64,000 nt of DNA from Boletus sp. NGJ (taxonomy: Eukaryota; Basidiomycota; Agaricomycetes; Boletales; Boletaceae). The stretch spans positions 372,001 through 436,000 of the forward strand of contig JAGTXK010000087.1 in NCBI GenBank assembly GCA_019096195.1, read 5' to 3'. Positions 19,777 to 40,933 of the stretch are shown piece after piece. The translations under genes and the position numbers were made by a program. Every line of letters starts with the position of its first letter. Positions within the stretch are counted from its first letter, which is position 1. The notes beneath the pieces are model-generated. The model worked only from the letters and a program-made list of their open reading frames with translations, was not told where the DNA came from and did not search any database.

Positions 19777-20245
19777 TTCTAGGGTACACGCTGCCGTTCA
19801 TGTTCATTTTCTCCATATACTATTCATCCTTCTACGCACACAATCACTATGGTCTCGTACGTTTCTCCAACTATTTTCATGCTCCTTGTCCTTCGTTCGG
19901 TCCTCTCCACTTTACATACCCTGCTTATGGTTTATTCTTTTTTCGTTGATCAGCACATCACAATATATATGAGAAGATGACACAGTAAATTCTGGAGGGT
20001 GAATTATCTAAAGTGCACTCTGAATCATTGACAAGCACCCAGTCACAATCACGATATCTCGTCTTTACGATCGTGCTCATGACATCTGAGTCGGATGCCG
20101 TCATATGGTAAATGTTATTGAGGGATTGCTACTATCTTGGGTTGCAGAGTCCTTTTGTCTAGTTCAGTACTGTCAGGATTCTGTTCTTCAACCTAGAAAA
20201 AAAAAAGCCACAAAAAAAGTATTCAGCGGATCATCAGCAGGAATA
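19777..20245. other. intergenic between the disordered protein and antiporter copy 1
   Basis: T-rich and A-rich sequence with no coding signal; presumably the convergent 3' ends of the two neighbours. The segment ttcagtactgtcaggattc near 20,162 recurs at about 26,330, next to the antiporter scrap between copies 2 and 3. Confidence 0.5.
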
Positions 20246-22507
20246 TCAAGCTGTGAAACGAACTTCTGTGGGTTCGGTGACTTCATCTCCGCCGCTATTC
20301 CCAGGATTACGGTCGTTTCTGATAGCTACCACTACTTCTTCCGCCGTGACAACAGGATTCGCGACTTGCGCTGCTGAAGGTGGGCTGTTGACCGTCTGGT
20401 CTGGTACTGCTCCAGTCTCGGGGTCGGCTTTTCCACTAGCTGCCATTCCATGTTCAACATCACCACCGGTGCCAGTAGCAGTGAGAAAACCTGTTGCGTT
20501 TTCTGGACGGCGAGCGTACAATAACCAGTCGGGAAGAACTCCACCAGTTCTTGTACGGGTCCATGTATAGGTAAAGGTAGCAGTGCGAGACTGCACACCT
20601 CTTCCCAAGTTGAAGAACGGGATGGAGAGGCCATCTGTCATGATGTGTGACACTCCAATTGCCGTACAAAAGACAAAGAGTACCTACGGACGATGATAGA
20701 ACCAAGTACTATGAACGATACCAGGGGCTGGATCATTGCAGCAAGCAACTGCCCCTGGTTCGCTGGCGGATTTGCGGGTGTCGGCAACTGTGTGAGAGCC
20801 AAGGCAGAAACGAAAACCGCGCTGACACCCATCTATACAAGAAGGAACACTGGATCATCGTCGTACCTGAGAACAAAGCGAGGTACTCACAGGACCTATG
20901 GAAGAAACATAAGTACTGAATCATGGTACACCATATTACGTTGTCGTACCAAAATGTCCGCAAAATAGCGCTTCCTTCCAAGACGTCACCTCAGGCACCC
21001 ACCTATAAAGCAGAAGCAGAGGCGGAATGCGTCGCAGGACAAGGATTGCAATCATCAATACGACCAATCGCCATGGAGTAATGCCCAGTTCAGGTGAATT
21101 GTACGACTCAAAAGGAAGCCAGGCACCAATGTAAATGAAGCAGCCACAGTTTAAAACATAGTCAATCACGGACGAAAATGAATCGTCTGCCGTTTGGACA
21201 TTGAAGTGGCCATCCCATGAGATAGCACAACCTATCGAGGTGAGCCTTGACTTGTCACAGAACTGAACAAACCCACTAACCTGCTGCAAAGGATGCCAAG
21301 AGATCATCGACACCGATGGAACTGGCCACACCGATTGTGAATATAGCAAGCGCCAAGTACTGCGCGATGAACGACTCGCGATCGATGAAGCCCTTGCGAT
21401 GACTCAATTTCATCAATTTAGAGAAGAGTATCCCTGTAAACAAGTTAGCCAGAGGCACTCTCGAGTAGTGAATGGCAGCTCACCCAGAACGGCTCCGAGA
21501 ATGGTGCCCAGGATGACTTGATCTGCGTCGTGCAACCAAATCAGGAAGTCGAGGTGAACATCCAACTGGAAACAACTCACACAACCATCCAATAAGGAAC
21601 CACTTCCCAATGGCCGCACGAGTTGAAGTTTCAACAGTCAGATAGATTGCAATACTGAGAAAGGGGTATGCCAGACCATCGTTCGCCGCAGATTCGGCCG
21701 AAAGAATGCGACGAATGTCGACAGGAACGTGCTTGGTAGCAAATCTTCCACCTGTATAGAAGATTATGTGAACGCTAAGATGGGTAACAGGAGAGACGAA
21801 CGGGTGATGGCAGCACAAGTGACTGGATCAGTTGGGGTGAGGCAAGCGGCAATACAGAGGGCCGATACTTGACCCAAAACAGGGAAGAGTGCGTGCAGGG
21901 CCGCTATGTGACAGGAGAAGATGTGAGGGAGTGAAATGATTGAGGCTGAGAAGCGTACCAGAAACGACAACCCACCCGAAAGCCATGGTAGGTACAACCA
22001 TGACGAAGAGACTTTTAGCATGCTGTTTCATGTAAGCACACGGTAATTCAACCCCTACGGCGAATAACCCGGTGGCAAGAACAATGCGCATGACCTCAAG
22101 GGTGATTCTGTTCTCTTCAGCGCCACCCCAGCCTCGAGGATCAAACACATTGGCTACGTAAGGGCCAACAATTACACCGAACCCAGTGCCCAGGACGACT
22201 TCGTTGATGTACAACTGAGGATGATTACTGGAAGAATGAGACTACAGGGATGAGAGGAACATACGGTTTCCTTTACTAGGAGGGATACCATAGAAAACTA
22301 AATAATGCACGGTGAGCTCGGGGAATGCGCTGGGCTCGCTGCACGGACGGAGGGAGAGAATCGCAGATCGGAGAGACTTACGAGGACAACGAAGCCGCCG
22401 AGGCATATATACGCCAAACTTGGCGCAGACACCTGTGATTCTCAGCGAGTTTGTTTGTCGATTGGGAGGAGAAATAGAAAACGAACTTGCAAAAGAGCCA
22501 TGGTCAT
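20246..22507 (-). CDS. Na+/H+ antiporter (CPA1/NHA type), copy 1
   Basis: A plasma-membrane Na+(K+)/H+ exchanger of the fungal NHA/CPA1 kind. It exports alkali cations in exchange for protons. The start MTMALLQ is spliced to VSAPSLAYICLGGFVVL, then FSMVSLLVKET, then LYINEVVLGTGFGVIVGPY. Core motifs are GLFAVGVELPCAYM, CIAACLTPTDPV (the conserved DP site), ILSAESAANDGLAYPF (the ND site), HRKGFIDRESFIAQYLALAI and IGVASSIGVDDLL. Later come SVIDYVLNCGCFIYIGAWLP, ITPWRLVVLMIAILVLRRIP, the five-base microexon 20891-20895, VSAVFVSALALTQLP and HGLSIPFFNLGR. The tail ends VRFTA. About twelve introns of 40-65 bases all keep frame, so this copy looks intact. The 5' end faces copy 2. Confidence 0.9.
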
Positions 22508-23281
22508 TGTACTAGACGAAGAGGTGGATCGGGCTGATTGTGCGGAGCGGAGGCATTGCTTATGTAATTGATGGGGGCAATCCTCTTCATCCACCATTCT
22601 GAGCTGGTCTGTTGGCCAACTTTGCGCAGCCGCATTGAATGAGATCAGTCAGTCACATCAGACAAAGTTTGTGGAACTTGGACTTGATTTCAGAATCTAT
22701 GTGGATTTCACACGGGGAGTATCAACATGCTCGTAATGCTTGTGGTATGTAATGCTGCAAATACGCGTCGTAACTGCGTTGTGTATTCATAAATCTCGTT
22801 TCATCTGGACTGACAGAGGCATGCCTCTGCCGCACTCCGTATTTCCAGCATTGAAACTCCACCACTCTGATCCCCAATGGTGGCCTAACTCCTGAACCAC
22901 TACTTAATTAACACGCCCTAGGGCTGATTCGCCGTATCCTGGTATGTAAATTACCCTAAATTCAGGTGTTAATTAGCCGTGGTAGTTTACACCCCCGTGC
23001 ACTAGTCCCGTTGGGGTTACTCAGAGTCGTTGTTTACATACTTCGAAAGCTTGATGGGGCTTCCAGAGAAGGTATGCTCTGCTCCTGCTATCAATCATGC
23101 TGTACTAGGATGACGTTCTCAGGGGTGTATACCATGATAGTGATAGCGCGGTGCGTGGACAGAGAGGGTCAAAAACCCTGGTCAATGTGTCTCACCCTCT
23201 GCATCTTCCATCGAGCTACCCCAGCTGTCGCCCTAGTAGCGTCGAATCATAATCTGCCCGATTTTCGCCTCGATAGCTACA
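22508..23281. promoter_or_regulatory. divergent promoter spacer between antiporter copies 1 and 2
   Basis: About 770 bases lie between the two outward start codons. They contain no gene. The part nearest copy 2 (ggtcaaaaaccctggtcaat, about 23,167) is matched in inverted orientation upstream of copy 3, so it probably belongs to the ancestral promoter. Copy 1 does not keep a clear match there, which suggests its promoter was replaced or truncated at duplication. Confidence 0.5.
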
Positions 23282-25647
23282 ATGATCATAGTTGTCTTGC
23301 AAGTTCGTTTTTCATTTCTCCCCCTAATCGACAAACAAACCCGCTGAGAATCACAGGTGTCTGCGCCAAGTTTGGCGTATATATGTCTCGGTGGTTTCGT
23401 TGTCCTCGTAAGTCTCTCCGATCTGCGATTCTCTCCCTCCGTCCGTGCAGCGAGCCCAGCGCATTCCCCGAGCTCACCGTGCATTATTTAGTTTTCTATG
23501 GTATCCCTCCTAGTAAAGGAAACAGTATGTTCCTCTCATCCCTGTAGTCTCATTCTTCCAGTAATCATCCTCAGTTGTACATCAACGAAGTCGTCCTGGG
23601 CACTGGGTTCGGTGTAATTGTTGGCCCTTACGTAGCCAATGTGTTTGATCCTCGAGGCTGGGGTGGCGCTGAAGAGAACAGAATCACCCTCGAGGTCATG
23701 CGCATTGTTCTTGCCATCGGTTTATTCGCCGTAGGGGTTGAATTACCGTGTGCTTACATGAAACAGCATGCTAAAAGTCTCTTCGTCGTGGTTGTACCTA
23801 CCATGGCTTTCGGGTGGGTTGTCGTTTCTGGTACGCTTCTCAGCCTCACATCATTTCAGTCGGCCGACGTCTTCTCCTGTCACATAGCGGTCTTGCATGC
23901 ACTCTTCCCTGTTTTGGATCAAGTATCGGCCCTCTGTATTGCCGCTTGCCTCACCCCAACTGATCCAGTCACTTGTGCTGCCATCACCCGTTCGTCTCTC
24001 CTGTTACCCATCCTAGCGTTCACATAATCTTCTATACAGGTGGAAGATTTGCTACCAAGCACGTTCCTGTCGACATTCGTCGCATTCTTTCGGCCGAATC
24101 TGCGGCGAACGATGGTCTGGCATACCCCTTTCTCAGTATTGCAATCTACCTCACTGTTGAAACTTCAACTCGTGTGGCCATTGGGAAGTGGTTCCTTATT
24201 GGATGGTTGTGTGAGCTGTTTCCAATTGGATGTTCACCTCGACTTCCTGATTTGGTTGCACGACGCAGATCAAGTCATCCTGGGCACCATTCTCGGAGCC
24301 GTTCTGGGTGAGCTGCCATTCACTACTCGAGAGTGCCTCTGGCTAACTTGTTTACAGGGATACTCTTCTCTAAATTGATGAAATTGAGTCATCGCAAGGG
24401 CTTCATCGATCGCGAGTCGTTCATCGCGCAGTACTTGGCGCTTGTCTATATTCACAATCGGTGTGGCCAGTTCCATCGGTGTCGATGATCTCTTGGCATC
24501 CTTTGCAGCAGGTTTGTAAGTTGTGTAGTGACAAGTCAAGGCTCACCCTCGATAGGTTGTGCAATCGCATGGGATGGCCACTTCAATGTTCAAACGGCAG
24601 ACGATTCATTTTCGTCCGTGATTGACTATGTTTTAAACTGTGGCTGCTTCATTTACATTGGTGCCTGGCTTCCCTTTGAATCGTACAATACGCCAGAACT
24701 GGGTATTACTCCATGGCGATTGGTCGTGTTGATGATTGCAATCCTTGTCCTTCGACGCATTCCGCCTCTGCTTCTGCTTTATAGGTGGGTGCCCGAGGTG
24801 AAGTCTTGGAAGGAAGCGCTATTTTGCGGACATTTTGGTACGACAACCCAATATGGCATGATTCAGTACTCATGTTTCTTCCATAGGTCCTGTGAGTACC
24901 TCGCTTTGTTCTCAGGTACGACGATGATCCAATGTTCCTTCTTGTATAGATGGGTGTCAGCGCGGTTTTCGTTTCTGCCTTGGCTCTCACACGGTTGCCG
25001 GCACCCGCAAATCCGCCAGCGAACCAGGGGCAGTTGCTTGCTGCAATGATCCAGCCCCTGGTATCATTCGTAGTGCTTGGTTCCATCATCGTCCGTAGGT
25101 ACTCTTTGTCTTTTGTACGGCAATTGGAGTGTCACACATCATGACAGATGGACTCTCCATCCCGTTCTTCAACTTGGGAAGAGGCATCCAGTCTGGCACT
25201 GTCACCTTTACTAATACGTGGACCCGTCCAACTGGGGGAACTCTTCTTGACTGGAAATTGTCCGCCCGCCGTCCGAACAAGAGTACATGTGCTATCAGTG
25301 CTACAGCGACTGACGTTGATGTTGAACATGCAATGGAAACCCACGGAGAAGCTGACCCCGAGACTGAAACCAGAGCTGACCAGACGGGTATCGGTCTGTC
25401 TTCAGAAGCGGATGTCGCAATTCCGGCTGCTACGGTGAGGTGGTAGCCGTCATCGACGATCGTATTCCTGGCAGTGGGGGCGGTGACGAAGCCACGGAAC
25501 CACACAAGTCCGTTACCCTCTTTTGTCATCCCTGATCCTATGAAAAATTTCTTCTTTTTTCTGCATTTTTCTAGGTCGTTGAGGAAGAGAACCCGGGCAA
25601 TGCTGGACCAGATGCCCAAGCTGGTGGGATTCCACTTTGTTGAATAA
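23282..25647 (+). pseudogene. Na+/H+ antiporter copy 2, frame disrupted twice
   Basis: Start MIIVVLQ joins VSAPSLAYICLGGFVVL through an intron with a GTTCGT donor, then FSMVSLLVKET and LYINEVVLGTG as in copy 1. Introns and key motifs (CLTPTDPV, SAESAANDGLAYPF) are kept. Two differences break the frame. At about 24,442 the copy reads cttgTctatattc where copies 1 and 3 read cttgctatattc, an extra base inside the QYLALAIFTIG helix. Near 25,435 about four bases are missing relative to the 26,350 scrap, giving a stop at 25,446 in the C-terminal tail. Everything between these points otherwise follows the intact copies, including the five-base microexon at 24887-24891. Unless the first change is a sequencing error, copy 2 cannot make the full exchanger. 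The sequence after 25,446 follows the tail of an older longer form. Confidence 0.8.
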
Positions 25648-26334
25648 AATTTACCGGTGACCGCATGACCGCATCGGAGATGTTTTTTTTTTTTTTTCAT
25701 CACATGTGTACTTCTGTGAGTATCTCCAGATAGAACACCTGTGTTTGCAAGTAAAAAAAACTCTTGTTTCCATTCTTGAGTTTCATTAGGGTCATTTTTC
25801 CAGAATAATTATGTCCCAGGAAAGAATACTCCATTTTTTCAATGGAACATGCAGCCTCAGGTCTCACATCTTTTATGTATCCAATTTCATCATGTCGTAC
25901 TGCTCCTGCTTCAGAAACTCTGATTTTGTGGCTCAAAAGACACAGAAACACCTCCAAAGCTGCAATGGCATGTGGTCCCAAAGCAAAGTACAGGTTGGTT
26001 TTGTTTTGTTGGGCAGTCGAAATAGAAATATTTTATTTTAGTCCGGTGGCTCCAATCCCATTCCTCAGAACATCACAGTGAACATTGTAATATAAGCAGA
26101 AACACATTGTATTTGTAGAGTGACCCACAAGTCGTGATTCATTTATAGAATAAGTCAAGGTCAATGGTTGTGAGAATGATGCAGGAATACTTAAAGTATA
26201 TTGCAAATCAGCAGCACGAGAGGCCAAAAGCAACCAGTATCAGTCATGATGTCTCGTAGTTATGCTCGGTATCATAAAGACTGGTGCCAATGCGGTCATG
26301 CGGCAGATGTCATTCAACGAGCATCTGGTTCAGT
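25648..26334. other. spacer between antiporter copies 2 and 3
   Basis: AT-rich sequence with T and A runs and no convincing gene. Minus-strand frames at 25,981-25,700 have no family features. Confidence 0.5.
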
Positions 26335-26500
26335 ACTGTCAGGATTCCCGTTGCTACAGTGCAAGAGGTGGTAACTGTCATCGGCGATCGAAGTGGGGGC
26401 GGTGAAGAAGCAACGGAATCCACACACGTCCGTTTCTCTGTTTTGTTATCCCTATTCATTATCCGCTGAAGAATTTGTGTGTGTTTTCTAGGTCAATAAG
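26335..26500 (+). pseudogene. C-terminal scrap of an antiporter copy, orientation of copy 2
   Basis: The segment reads IPVATVQEVVTVIGDRSGGGEEATES on the plus strand. It matches the C-terminal tail of copy 2 and of copy 1 (EEVVVAIRNDRNPGNSGGDE), followed by the same last-intron remnant and the first bases of the last exon. It runs directly into the leftward 3' end of copy 3. It is too short to be functional and marks a rearrangement junction. Confidence 0.75.
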
Positions 26501-28657
26501 TTGAAGAGGATCGCGACATCTTCTTCTGAAGACAGACTGATACTACCTATCTGATCAGCTCTGGTTTCAGTCTCGGGGTCAGCTTCTCCGTGGGTTTCCA
26601 TTCCACGTTCAACATCAACGTCAGTTTCCGTAGCACTGACAGCACACGTAGCGTTTTCCGGACGGCGGGTGTAGAATACCCAGTCAGGAAGTGCTCCCCC
26701 AGTTCTTGTACGGGTCCACGTATTGGTAAAGGTGACAGTGCCAGACTGGACGCCTCTTCCCAAGTTGAAGAACGGGATGGAGAGTCCATCTGTCATGATG
26801 TGTGACACTCCAATTGCCGTACAAAAGACAAAGAGTACCTACGGACGATGATGGAACCAAGTACTACGAATGATACCAGGGGCTGGATCATTGCAGCAAG
26901 CAACTGCCCCTGGTTCGCTGGCGGATTTGCGGGTGTCGGCAACTGTGTGAGAGCCAAGGCAGAAACGAAAACCGCGCTGACACCCATCTATACAAGAAGG
27001 AACACTGGATCATCGTCATACCTGAGAACAAAGCGAGGTACTCACAGGACCTATGGGAGAAACGTGAGTACTGAATCATGCCATATTGCGTTGTCGTACC
27101 AAAATGTCCGCAAAATAGCGCTTCCTTCCAAGACTTCACCTCGGGCACCCACCTATAAAGCAGAAGCAGAGGCGGAATGCGTCGAAGGACAAGGATTGCA
27201 ATCATCAACACGACCAATCGCCATGGAGTAATACCCAGTTCTGGCGTATTGTACGATTCAAAAGGAAGCCAGGCACCAATGTAAATGAAGCAGCCACAGT
27301 TTAAAACATAGTCAATCACGGACGAAAATGAATCGTCTGCCGTTTGAACATTGAAGTAGCCATCCCATGCGATTGCACAACCTATCGAGGGTGAGCCTTG
27401 ACTTGTCACTGCACAACTTACAAACCTGCTGCAAAGGATGCCAAGAGATCATCGACATCAATGGAACTGGCCACACCGATTGTGAATATAGCAAGCGCCA
27501 AGTACTGCGCGATGAACGACTCGCGATCGATGAAGCCCTTGCGATGACTCAATTTCATCAATTTAGAGAAGAGTATCCCTGTAAACAAGTTAGCCAGAGG
27601 CACTCTCGAGTAGTGAATGGCAGCTCACCCAGAACGGCTCCGAGAATGGTGCCCAGGATGACTTGATCTGCGTCGTGCAACCAAATCAGGAAGTCGAGGT
27701 GAACATCCAATTGGAAACAGCTCACACAACCATCCAATAAGGAACCACTTCCCAATGGCCACACGAGTGGAAGTTTCAACAGTGAGGTAGATTGCAATAC
27801 TGAGAAAGGGGTATGCCAGACCATCGTTCGCCGCAGATTCGGCCGAAAGAATGTGACGAATGTCGGCGGGAACGTGCTCGTTAGCAAATATCCCGTCTAT
27901 ATAGAAGATTATGTGAACGCTAGGATGAGGCATGGGTAACAGGAGAGACGAACGGGTGATGGTAGCACAAGTGACTGGATCAGTTGGGGTGAGGCAAGCG
28001 GCAATACAGAGGGCCGATACTTGATCCAAAACAGGGAAGAGTGCATGCAAGACCGCTATGTGACAGGAGAAGACGTCGGCCGACTGAAATGATGTGAGGC
28101 TGAGAAGCGTACCAGAAACGACAACCCACCCGAAAGCCATGGTAGGTACAACCATGACGAGGAGACTTTTGGCGTGGTATTTCATGTAAGCACGCGGTAA
28201 TTCAACCCCTACGGCGAATAACCCGGTGGCAAGAACAATGCGCATGACCTCAAGGGTGATTCTGTTCTCTTCAGCGCCACCCCAGCCTCGAGGATCAAAC
28301 ACATTGGCTATGTAAGGGCCAACAATTACACCGAACCCAGTGCCCAGGACGACTTCGTTGATGTACAACTGAGGATGGTTACTGGAAGAATGAGACTACA
28401 GGGATGAGAGGAACATACGGTTTCCTTTACTAGGAGGGATACCATAGAGAACTAAATAATGTAGTGAGCTTGGGTAATGTGCTGGGCTCGCGCCAAGGAT
28501 GGAGGGAGATAATCGCAAATGAAGAGGCTTACGAGGACAACGAAGCCGCCGAGACATATATACACCAAACTTGGTGCAGACACCTGTGAATGTGAGCAGG
28601 TTTGTTTGTCGATTGGGGGAGAAATGAAAAACGGACTTGCAAGAGAGCGATGGCCAT
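26488..28657 (-). CDS. Na+/H+ antiporter (CPA1/NHA type), copy 3
   Basis: The third copy begins MAIALLQ and splices to VSAPSLVYICLGGFVVL, then LYINEVVLGTGFGVIVGPYI. Frame is kept through the DP site (LTPTDPV), the ND site (SAESAANDGLAYPF), the FIDRESFIAQYLALAIFTIG helix, the microexon 27046-27050, VSAVFVSALALTQLP and FFNLGRGVQSGTVTF. It differs from copy 1 by scattered substitutions, for example PYIANVF for PYVANVF and RAYMKYH for CAYMKQH. The C-terminal tail is altered: it ends SSEEDVAILFNLLT at the junction with the inverted scrap, so the last 30 or so residues of copy 1 are lost. The membrane core is complete, and transport activity is plausible. The upstream flank keeps a TATA-like box. 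Confidence 0.85.
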
Positions 28658-28735
28658 TATAGCTGTTTATGATGAAATTTCAGCTGATGATGATTCGATG
28701 CTACTATGGCGATAGCTTGGGAGTGGGTCAATGGA

Positions 28736-28743
28736 ATATATAG
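28736..28743 (-). promoter_or_regulatory. TATA-like box upstream of antiporter copy 3
   Basis: Read leftward it is CTATATAT, about 80 bases before the ATG at 28657. The neighbouring GGTGAGACACATTGACC is shared, inverted, with the region upstream of copy 2. Confidence 0.4.
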
Positions 28744-29511
28744 AGGGTGAGACACATTGACCGAGTTTTTGACCTTCTCCATCGCACCCCATGATCAGGT
28801 TCCTTCCCAGTGGCGCTGTTCATGTGAGGGGCGATGTACTAGGGCAAGCTGTAAGATTCCCGTGAATGGTGGATGGATTCGCATGAGGGCTACCTAAGTA
28901 GTAACTTGAAGTACCTTGGGCGCGAGAGCGGGCAAACATTTCATAAGACCGGCGATTGCCCTCACTCTTTTGATAGTAAAGAGGTTACATTTCACGGGCC
29001 CTCACACACTCAGCGACTCCTGGAATAACATTTGGAACAGTGAGAAATTAATTAATTATGGTTGGAAAAATCTTACCGAGTTATGTCCGCCGATCAATTC
29101 CCTAATAGAGCAGTTCCTCCTTCAGGCGTTCACGCACTCACGCCTCAACCTGACATAATCATCGCGATAACACCCTGGGAATGGCAAACCCTGTGGCGGG
29201 AATCAGAATCAGACACGGGATCATCTGGCACGTGATAGTAAGGGACAAGACGTTTGAAGTCGGCAAACGGAGGATCGGTTGGTCCGACAGTGTCCAAGCT
29301 TCCGACCAACAGCTGAAGCAGTCGGTTCGGTGAATCCGTTCTCCAAAGTCATAGCACAATATACAGTGACCATATATTCACAAGGGTAATATTACAAATA
29401 GTGCAGCGGTATACCAGGGAAAAACGACGTCCATATTATGATATATGCACAACACACCGTAGACACCTCAACAATTGAAACTGGGCAGTGATCAGCTCGA
29501 TGAGAGGATGC
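28744..29511. other. intergenic upstream of antiporter copy 3
   Basis: No gene is recognised. A GAGACACATTGACC-like block near 28,750 is shared with copy 2. The rest, including the short rightward frame at 28,916-29,158, has no coding features. The 3' flank of the bleomycin hydrolase gene lies at the right. Confidence 0.5.
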
Positions 29512-39001: not shown

Positions 39002-40933
39002 TCACCATTTCACTGTCAGGCCGATGACCTCACTCTCAACTGCCCGGTAATCGGTCCGGAACAGCTCCCGTCGCCGCTTCTCTGCGCCGGTATCCATGTC
39101 CACATCCCACCCGGTCCGGCCCGCTTCCCCTGGCCGACACATGTCCACTTGCACCGTCAGTGCAACATGGTTCGCGTAATCCAACTCATCTGAGCCCATT
39201 CCCCATGGTGGTGGCGTTGGTAACTTGCGCCAGTACGCCTCCTCAACTTCTTTTGTCCATTCCCGATTTCCCCATTTTGGCCCCTCCCCTGACATCGAAA
39301 CCCCATTCTCCTCCCAACTCCTCGCATACCCCTCCTCGTCTTCCGTCCGCTCGGATGCCTTGCCAATTCCGCGCAGCTGCCCACCCCCGTTCACGCACCC
39401 CCCTGGGCACGCCATCACCTCCACGTAATCATACCGCTTCTCGTCCCCCTCAGCCCCATTCTTCTTCGCTTTTGCTCTTATCCCAACCATGCGTCCCGCA
39501 GCACCCCTTCCGACCTGCACTCCAGCCTCTTTTCCAACCTTCCTCACCACGTTTTGTAGATTCCGGAATCCATAACACTTTGCCCCCTTGAACACGACCT
39601 CGCCATTGCTCTGCTTGTGCAGCATGTACTCTTCGTAATCTGATGTGCGCACCGTTTTCACGCTGAGATCCAATGGTTCTGGGCAAGCGTGCCTGACGGC
39701 GGACATGAGTGAATGGAGGTAGGAACCCGCACTCGTACCCGGGTGAAGCAGCAGCTCGGGAATATCTTCCAGGTTTTGTGCGTTGTCTTCTTCGGGAACT
39801 GGGACAGACAGATCCCAGCCCTTCTCGTGCATGAGTAGCTCAAGTTCCCCGGTCGTGATGACGCAGTCAACATCCCGCGTCGAATATACGTCGTTGTAAA
39901 AGTCCTGGCGCGATGCTTCGAGCTTTTTGTCATAACACGGCATCACAGCAACGTGATATATCTGATCAGGTCTATAGAACGTTGGTCAAAAATATTCTCT
40001 GTTGATGCCAACACGCACTGTTTTCCCCAGATGCTCGCTAGCCACGACTTGACCAATGTCCCCATCACTTGCTGGGGGCTTTTTGTCCGAGAGATGAAGG
40101 GTAACATTTCGGAATGCGTCTTTTCGGCATAGCATATCCATCCAGGACATGCGCTCGCCAACATCGGCAGCTTACCGTCCCTTTTGCGTTCCCAAAACTC
40201 TCGCGCATGCTCCAGTAGGGAGATATGTCGTGCAAAAGTCGTGTCATAGACATGTTCAAAGCCCAATACTTGCGTGCAAAACCCACCCACTCGCCGCATG
40301 ACCTGCCTCAGTCCGACAGGTCCACTTGAGCTCGATGACAACGTCGCCGAGAGCGACGCCAGACATTGGGGTGCGATCGACAACACCGGGACCTTGTGCG
40401 CCGGTGAACTCGCGGGCGGATTTCCCTCGAAGAAGTTGAGCACCTCCGTGTGTGACTGCAGAGTGATCAAGACTGATTCGGCCGACGTGATGCATCCACT
40501 TTGGGGCATGTAAATTGGGGTCACGGAATGCACGGAATGCGGACGACGTGCCTGCACGCAAGGCAATCGTTGAGACTGATCTGTGCCTGTTGTAATTTGC
40601 GTTCCGATGATTTGGGCGCAGTTGCGTCCTGTACAGAGGGGGTGGACGACACTTCATAATAAGATCCGAACGAGTCAATTCGGATATCCGTCTGGCAGGG
40701 CGAAGGGCGTTTTCCATGAACGGGGAATAGAAAGGGCGAGGAAGAACACGTACAGATGCGGATCCTGCATCATTCACTGTCTCTGGGGCGTTGAGTTGCT
40801 CGACTGGCTTGATGCATGCTTGTGAAGGAGTGAGGAAGTCGTTGAGGTCTGTTAGTGTCTATTTCGGTGTTGTGAGTCCCCGAGTGCACATCGTGGTTGG
40901 CTGATCACCCACCAGAGCACCAGAGAACGCCAT
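39002..40933 (-). CDS. NAR1: cytosolic Fe-S cluster assembly factor Nar1
   Basis: Nar1 is the [FeFe]-hydrogenase-like scaffold protein of the cytosolic iron-sulfur assembly (CIA) machinery, passing clusters to the targeting complex. The start MAFSGAL joins TLTDLNDFLTPSQACIKPVE. The N-terminal cluster ligands are the Cys of SQACIKPV and those in NDCLACSGCITSAES. The hydrogenase-like domain follows: PVLSIAPQCLASLSA, VGGFCTQVLGFEHVYDTTFA, MLASACPGWICYAEK, KSPQQVMGTLVKSW, MPCYDKKLEASR and MACPGGCVNGGGQL, giving the second cluster site. The C terminus ends EVIGLTVKW, a conserved aromatic end needed for CIA targeting in family members. One intron (40499-40551), between the Cys and Ser of LACSGC, uses a GC donor. 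The gene looks intact. Confidence 0.93.

Follow-up and report, generated by a model that had tools for sequence, protein, structure and literature searches.

There is prior evidence that inverted neighbouring genes can evolve in concert. The long wavelength-sensitive (LWS) opsins of the guppy include an inverted, tail-to-tail pair and a hybrid gene (PMC2527612), and gene conversion between closely linked inverted genes has been described for the Dlx pair of Capitella teleta (PMC3199776) and for paralogues of Caenorhabditis (PMC3966223). Models for inverted triplication, namely origin-dependent inverted-repeat amplification (ODIRA) and template switching, have also been described (PMC4689423, PMC13334657), and two Wallemia species have been found to carry two homologues each of the antiporter gene NHA1 (PMC3849046). 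We have analyzed a window of 64,000 bp from the fungus Boletus sp. NGJ (positions 372001-436000 of contig JAGTXK010000087.1, here C3, 608,764 bp), in which an NHA1-like Na+/H+ antiporter gene is found in three copies on alternating strands (Table 1). A fungal, probably basidiomycete, source is also what the gene structure, the short introns and the set of antiporters suggest. Our analysis suggests that the central part of these copies has been homogenised by conversion between inverted neighbours while their ends diverged.

The triplet resembles the guppy opsins in consisting of inverted tandem duplicates with a mosaic copy, the 5' part of which matches one paralogue and the 3' part another. 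The guppy locus, however, has two linked inverted genes plus the hybrid, while the present one has three in alternation, with the frameshifted middle copy as the mosaic. With the Capitella and Caenorhabditis genes it shares conversion that extends into introns, but those are pairs or pairs of pairs, with no alternating triplet in the text consulted. The ODIRA triplication at SUL1 in baker's yeast (PMC4689423) is similar in having three copies with the middle one inverted, in involving a transporter gene and in being fungal. It was obtained by laboratory evolution, with an amplicon that includes a replication origin and with inverted-repeat junctions; the present triplet differs from it by its unequal divergence, its unit of about 2.5 kb and the lack of residual fold symmetry. 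Like fungal NHA1, the copies have a PF00999 core with DP and ND motifs, and they are 43-54% identical, depending on the stretch, to an NHA1-like gene on another contig of the genome (C109), from which they differ by their tails of about 90-120 residues (counted on spliced translations) and by being three and alternating. We met no alternating antiporter triplet in the portions of the literature searched, which does not prove that none has been published. Concerted evolution of inverted neighbours being known, we regard the three-copy alternating form as unusual and not as a new kind of system. Its value is that one gene is linked to an inverted neighbour at its head and to another at its tail, so that one locus of 8.5 kb is enough to follow how orientation and distance affect conversion.

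Three antiporter copies in alternating orientation

Comparison of the window with itself by BLAST gave two inverted pairs, copy 1 with copy 2 (20257-22511 against 25514-23278, 92.1% identical) and copy 2 with copy 3 (23162-25421 against 28779-26510, 93.8%), and one direct pair, copy 1 with copy 3 (20413-22511 against 26568-28661, 92.6%). The spliced models agree with this arrangement, and the minus, plus, minus triplication proposed in the first-pass annotation is confirmed. The DNA of copy 1, used as query against the 32.8 Mb assembly (141 contigs), matched only these three places. Copies 1 and 3 are 6 kb apart.

The gene models, built from anchored splice junctions, give every copy the same set of 12 exons and 11 introns, with GT...AG ends in 33 of 33 introns, which bears out the earlier statement that exons and introns are common to all. 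Exon 10 has only 5 bases in the three copies (20891-20895, 24887-24891 and 27046-27050). Skipping it breaks the frame, and keeping it yields GHFGPMG, matching the GHFGPIG of the other NHA1-like gene of the genome. The PF00999 scores were 169.8 bits for copy 1 and 164.2 bits for copy 3 (cut-off 26.2), and the alignments cover positions 4-371 of the 375-position profile. The DP and ND motifs, which we take to be the ion-site motifs of this exchanger family, had been noted as intact in copies 1 and 3, and both are present there in the spliced translations (TPTDPVTC and ESAANDGLAY). In copy 2 an extra base in exon 8 leads to a stop after 267 residues; its aligned core is otherwise free of stops and of a second indel. 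A phmmer search at E 0.001 found no relative of copy 1 in the PDB. When bacterial and archaeal contigs were scanned with one unspliced frame of copy 3, 14 stretches fitted a pattern and none was confirmed.

Table 1. Coordinates, in the window, of the antiporter copies and of the sequences at their ends.
Feature	Position	Strand	Remarks
3' flank of copy 1	20033..20245	-	20181-20158 and 20119-20033 homologous to copy 3 flank 26347-26324 and 26314-26228
Copy 1	20246..22507	-	12 exons, 548 residues, intact model; PF00999 E=1e-49; introns GT-AG 11/11
Head-to-head spacer	22512..23161	.	unique; upstream of copy 1, without counterpart upstream of copy 3
Promoter stretch of copy 2, common with copy 3	23162..23281	+	0/500 shuffles reach the match; 96/123 columns identical
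Copy 2	23282..25446	+	middle copy, inverted, with the 12 exons of the others; extra base in exon 8 (~24446); end taken from the open reading frame of the tail
Tail-to-tail spacer	25678..26227	.	unique sequence; left boundary tentative
Inverted tail segment of copy 3	26340..26510	+	~170 bp, opposite in orientation to the remainder of copy 3; limits approximate
Copy 3	26488..28657	-	12 exons, 519 residues, shorter tail; PF00999 E=5.2e-48; introns GT-AG 11/11
Promoter stretch of copy 3, common with copy 2	28658..28779	-	same ~120 bp alignment, 96/123 columns identical

A mosaic middle copy

At 102 sites of the core two copies agree against the third, and the pairings conflict: 46 unite copies 1 and 2, 42 unite copies 2 and 3, and 14 unite copies 1 and 3. 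These sites are clustered, with 33 runs where 63 were expected (p 2e-5, runs test restricted to the core; a first version, 0/20000, had included the tail and the inverted piece of copy 3 and was superseded). The longest shared tract gave p values of 0.0005 for copies 1-2, 0.012 for 2-3 and 0.18 for 1-3, uncorrected across the three tests. The two main classes also differ in location, as 40 of the 46 sites shared by copies 1 and 2 fall in the 5' half, against 20 of the 42 shared by copies 2 and 3 (p 9e-5; p 0.0014 with silent sites alone). Copy 2 is closer to its head-to-head neighbour, copy 1, on the head side and to its tail-to-tail neighbour, copy 3, on the tail side. The introns are part of the pattern. 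Intron 2 has no differences in 84 positions between copies 1 and 2, and 12 in 81 between either of them and copy 3; intron 4 has none in 57 between copies 2 and 3, and 5 in 55 between either and copy 1. Differences private to one copy were fewest in copy 2 (14, against 42 in copy 1 and 46 in copy 3, p 1e-4). Judging from the tracts, conversion would have acted between the inverted neighbours (1-2 and 2-3); none was detected between copies 1 and 3.

The mosaic is not a clean one, given that nearly half of the sites shared by copies 2 and 3 are in the 5' half and that exon 6 starts with a patch private to copy 3. This patch, near 27880 (within 28113-27726), holds 9 private differences in about 45 bases of a core otherwise near-identical. 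The stretch formed by exon 7, intron 7 and exon 8 (21281-21522 and its equivalents) is identical in the three copies except for two changes in copy 3 and the inserted base of copy 2, and perhaps represents the most recent conversion.

Core and tail divergence

Over exons 1-11 the synonymous divergence (dS) was 0.081 between copies 1 and 2, 0.088 between 1 and 3, and 0.057 between 2 and 3. In exon 12, over the initial 90 codons, which precede the inversion of copy 3, the values rose to 0.449, 0.546 and 0.128, respectively, on about 65 synonymous sites and an alignment that includes some gaps. Synonymous divergence of core and tail differed by Fisher's test with p 2e-7 (1-2), 5e-9 (1-3) and 0.052 (2-3). 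Hence the linked, opposite-strand copies are less diverged at silent sites of the core than of the tail, as concerted evolution implies, borderline in the case of 2-3. The core introns, once the splice consensus was excluded, diverged by 0.043 (1-2), 0.076 (1-3) and 0.045 (2-3), no higher than the silent sites, and introns 7 and 11 are identical across all three copies. Since introns and silent sites are alike as well, selection on the protein would not explain the likeness of the cores, and gene conversion would. The annotation had foreseen that long inverted repeats of this kind can convert each other, and the comparisons it proposed (intron divergence, the ratio of nonsynonymous to synonymous divergence or dN/dS, and conversion tracts) support this, with low intron and silent divergence in the core, far below that of the tail, and clustered tracts for 1-2 and 2-3. 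Its remark that only a few residues differ holds for exons 2-11 and fails for exon 12, where 24-34% of the sites differ between copies, the inverted stretch of copy 3 included.

The divergence of tails and flanks suggests an early split of copy 1, well before that between copies 2 and 3, provided that the tails of 2 and 3 were not themselves converted. An identity of 92-94% does not make the duplication young, and the copies are probably older than they look. The same caution applies to other neighbours at this level of identity, which can be older duplicates than the figure implies.

Promoters, flanks and spacers

Sharing of promoter sequence, also proposed in the first-pass annotation, holds for copies 2 and 3, over about 120 bp, and not for copy 1. 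The upstream sequence of copy 1 has no match above the 95% shuffle level in that of copy 3. Compared with the upstream sequence of copy 2, using the near halves of the spacer, it gave, outside the shared stretch, only a 15-base match, equalled in 13 of 500 shuffles. A score reached in 4 of 300 shuffles for this last pair under looser scoring was discarded, as it compared the spacer with its own reverse complement, for which the shuffle control was unfit.

On the 3' side the homology of copies 1 and 3 extends beyond the genes, to 20033 and 26228. Neither flank match was reached in 500 shuffles, and the longer one has 61 of 88 columns identical. The homology of copy 2 stops earlier, near 25612 with respect to copy 1 and near 25677 with respect to copy 3, this last end being a 17-base match reached in 9 of 500 shuffles. 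Copy 3 holds the union of the shared parts and would therefore be the likeliest parent of copy 2. Searched genome-wide, the head-to-head spacer (query 22505-23290) matched only itself and the shared promoter stretch of copy 3, and the tail-to-tail spacer (query 25520-26480) had no match besides itself and the piece of tail at 25420-25533.

The tail of copy 3 contains an inversion of its own. In the self-comparison, 25420-25533 matches 26344-26453 on the same strand, and the segment aligns with copy 2 at 132 of 198 columns in inverted orientation against 102 of 209 in the other. The reading frame of copy 3 ends within this inversion, which shortens its C-terminus and, by eye, lies perhaps between very short inverted repeats.

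Constraint and function of the copies

Core changes between copies 1 and 3 were synonymous in 26 of 50 cases (p 3e-5). The changes private to copy 1 were mostly synonymous as well (16/23, p 9e-6), which indicates that this copy is constrained, and most likely it makes a working antiporter. Copy 3, whose tail is shorter and whose upstream sequence differs, probably makes one as well. These differences in upstream sequence and tail leave room for different regulation, and divergent regulation of the outer copies is possible. The private coding differences of copy 2 were synonymous in 7 of 11 cases, against one quarter expected without constraint (p 0.008), so its frameshift looks recent, or else it is a sequencing error.

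Origin of the triplet

We consider it probable, although far from certain, that the triplet grew by stepwise duplication, with copy 1 the first to split and the core homogenised later by gene conversion. Copy 1 would have parted from the ancestor of copies 2 and 3, and copy 2 would then have arisen as an inverted duplicate of copy 3. Conversion between inverted neighbours (1 with 2, and 2 with 3) would keep exons 2-11 and the introns alike, while promoters, tail exon and flanks drift apart. Copy 2, at present broken by one frameshift, would sit between the outer copies as a sequence bridge.

Several points weigh against this account. We infer the order of events, and the direction of conversion, from divergence inside one genome; the tail counts behind it are small and come from an alignment with some gaps, and the core/tail contrast is only borderline for copies 2 and 3. 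The coding changes private to copy 3 (9/24 synonymous, p 0.12) are indistinguishable from no constraint. Clustering of two-against-one sites that resembles conversion was found also in a direct antiporter array on contig C109 (315 runs against 391, 0/2000 shuffles; edges less identical), hence it is not peculiar to the inverted layout, although that alignment takes exons and introns together and selection may contribute to the clustering. The missing conversion between copies 1 and 3 may reflect their distance and not their orientation, and a mosaic of this sort could also result from recombination between diverged alleles.

A narrower form of stepwise growth, overlapping with it, is that copies 1 and 3 formed first as an ordinary direct tandem pair, with a later insertion of copy 2, an inverted duplicate of copy 3. 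The common orientation of copies 1 and 3, their shared 3' flank, longer than that of copy 2, and the copy-3-like promoter and tail of copy 2 are all in agreement with it. Nothing distinguishes it from an inverted first duplication, and we hold it as a serious possibility that falls short of being probable.

A single replication error, by ODIRA, by duplication-inverted triplication-duplication (DUP-TRP/INV-DUP) or by iterative template switching, might instead have made all three copies, with later conversion and decay blurring the junctions. The middle copy inverted between two direct ones is indeed the layout of inverted triplication (PMC4689423). The head-to-head spacer contains a perfect palindrome of 16 bp (22814-22829) of a kind found in 18 of 2000 shuffled spacers, with one other of that length elsewhere in the window; together with the 15-base inverted match in the same spacer it gives a weak hint in this direction. 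However, a single event would predict equal divergence, a promoter common to all copies and symmetrical junctions, none of which was found, and stepwise growth fits better. Divergence in the unconverted parts is unequal (tail dS of 0.45 and 0.55 against 0.13), something that conversion of the tails of 2 and 3 could also cause, and the promoter stretch of copies 2 and 3 is missing from copy 1. Neither spacer has fold symmetry beyond that of shuffled sequences, the observed palindromic score being reached by 44 and 19 of 200 shuffles for the head-to-head spacer (two cuts) and by 178 of 200 for the tail-to-tail one, so that the repeated fold-back suggested in the first-pass annotation finds no support as the visible cause. 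The size of the unit is also discordant: the SUL1 amplicons are larger (median 16.5 kb when ARS228 is present; PMC4689423), and a typical small inverted triplication is smaller (148/160/148 bp), although the inverted part can span several kb (PMC13334657). We judge a single event unlikely.

Less likely still, and speculative, is that the alternating layout acts as its own maintenance device. Pairing of inverted neighbours would drive conversion specific to each partner (copies 1 and 2 exchanging their head halves, copies 2 and 3 their tail halves), with the middle copy acting as bridge in spite of its frameshift, and crossovers between the arms would flip the spacers, swapping the promoters of copies 1 and 2.

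The arrangement is known from assembled sequence only and the one-base frameshift of copy 2 resembles a sequencing error, which could suggest a misassembly, in which alleles or haplotypes of one or two loci were put together in a wrong orientation. Such an artefact is quite unlikely given the distinct tails, spacers and flanks, the distinct upstream sequence of copy 1, the 92-94% identity and the absence of any N in the 184 kb surrounding the triplet; moreover, alleles ought to have longer flanks in common. Strong purifying selection alone, without gene conversion, is barely credible: a core dN/dS of 0.15-0.44 is compatible with it, but the core introns (7 and 11 above all) and synonymous sites are close as well, and the informative sites are clustered in tracts with conflicting pairings. 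An origin mediated by transposons or repeats was rejected, as the spacers match nothing else genome-wide beyond the shared pieces in a search that skips very common words.

Orientation of other duplicates and other antiporters

The annotation had assumed that tandem duplicates usually keep one orientation. A blastn self-comparison of the 184 kb of C3 that surround the triplet gave seven pairs of at least 150 bp, three from the triplet and four others, all four direct (one is a 168-bp repeat that overlaps with itself). The eight rows obtained for 60 kb of C109 were likewise direct and came from one antiporter array. At the protein level, opposite-strand pairs in these stretches occurred only within the triplet. 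Within the 244 kb sampled, a small and partly chosen base (the part of C109 was chosen because it contains antiporters), the alternating orientation is thus unusual for this genome.

A genome search with PF00999 gave 13 stretches. Of these, 7 lie on C3 and represent the triplet exon by exon, 5 are on C109 and 1 is on contig C10. When the copy 1 protein was used as query, 26 stretches were listed, and the three outside the triplet belong to a single gene, C109:671876-673274, with 45-54% identity (43% in the longest stretch aligned by tblastn). Judged from frames only, the open frames for the tail of this NHA1-like gene are much longer than those of the triplet, a long tail being what we take to be a canonical NHA1 trait. 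A second C109 location, at 424.7-479.2 kb, is an array of four plus-strand copies; three are mutually 84-85% identical and the fourth 65-67%. PF00999 exceeded the cut-off once in each copy in the genome search; when four frames from the array were scanned, two passed, one was below the cut-off and one had no match. These genes presumably resemble KHA1-type antiporters, and the array is a natural direct-orientation counterpart of the triplet.

Among the neighbouring frames of the window we found matches to a Peptidase C1-like domain (PF03051, 30632-31717), ferrochelatase (PF00762, 46844-47845) and bZIP (PF00170, 49466-50623). Two open frames on the minus strand at 39002-40653 match the C-terminal domain of the iron-only hydrogenase large subunit (PF02906), and we assume that they probably belong to a NAR1-type protein.

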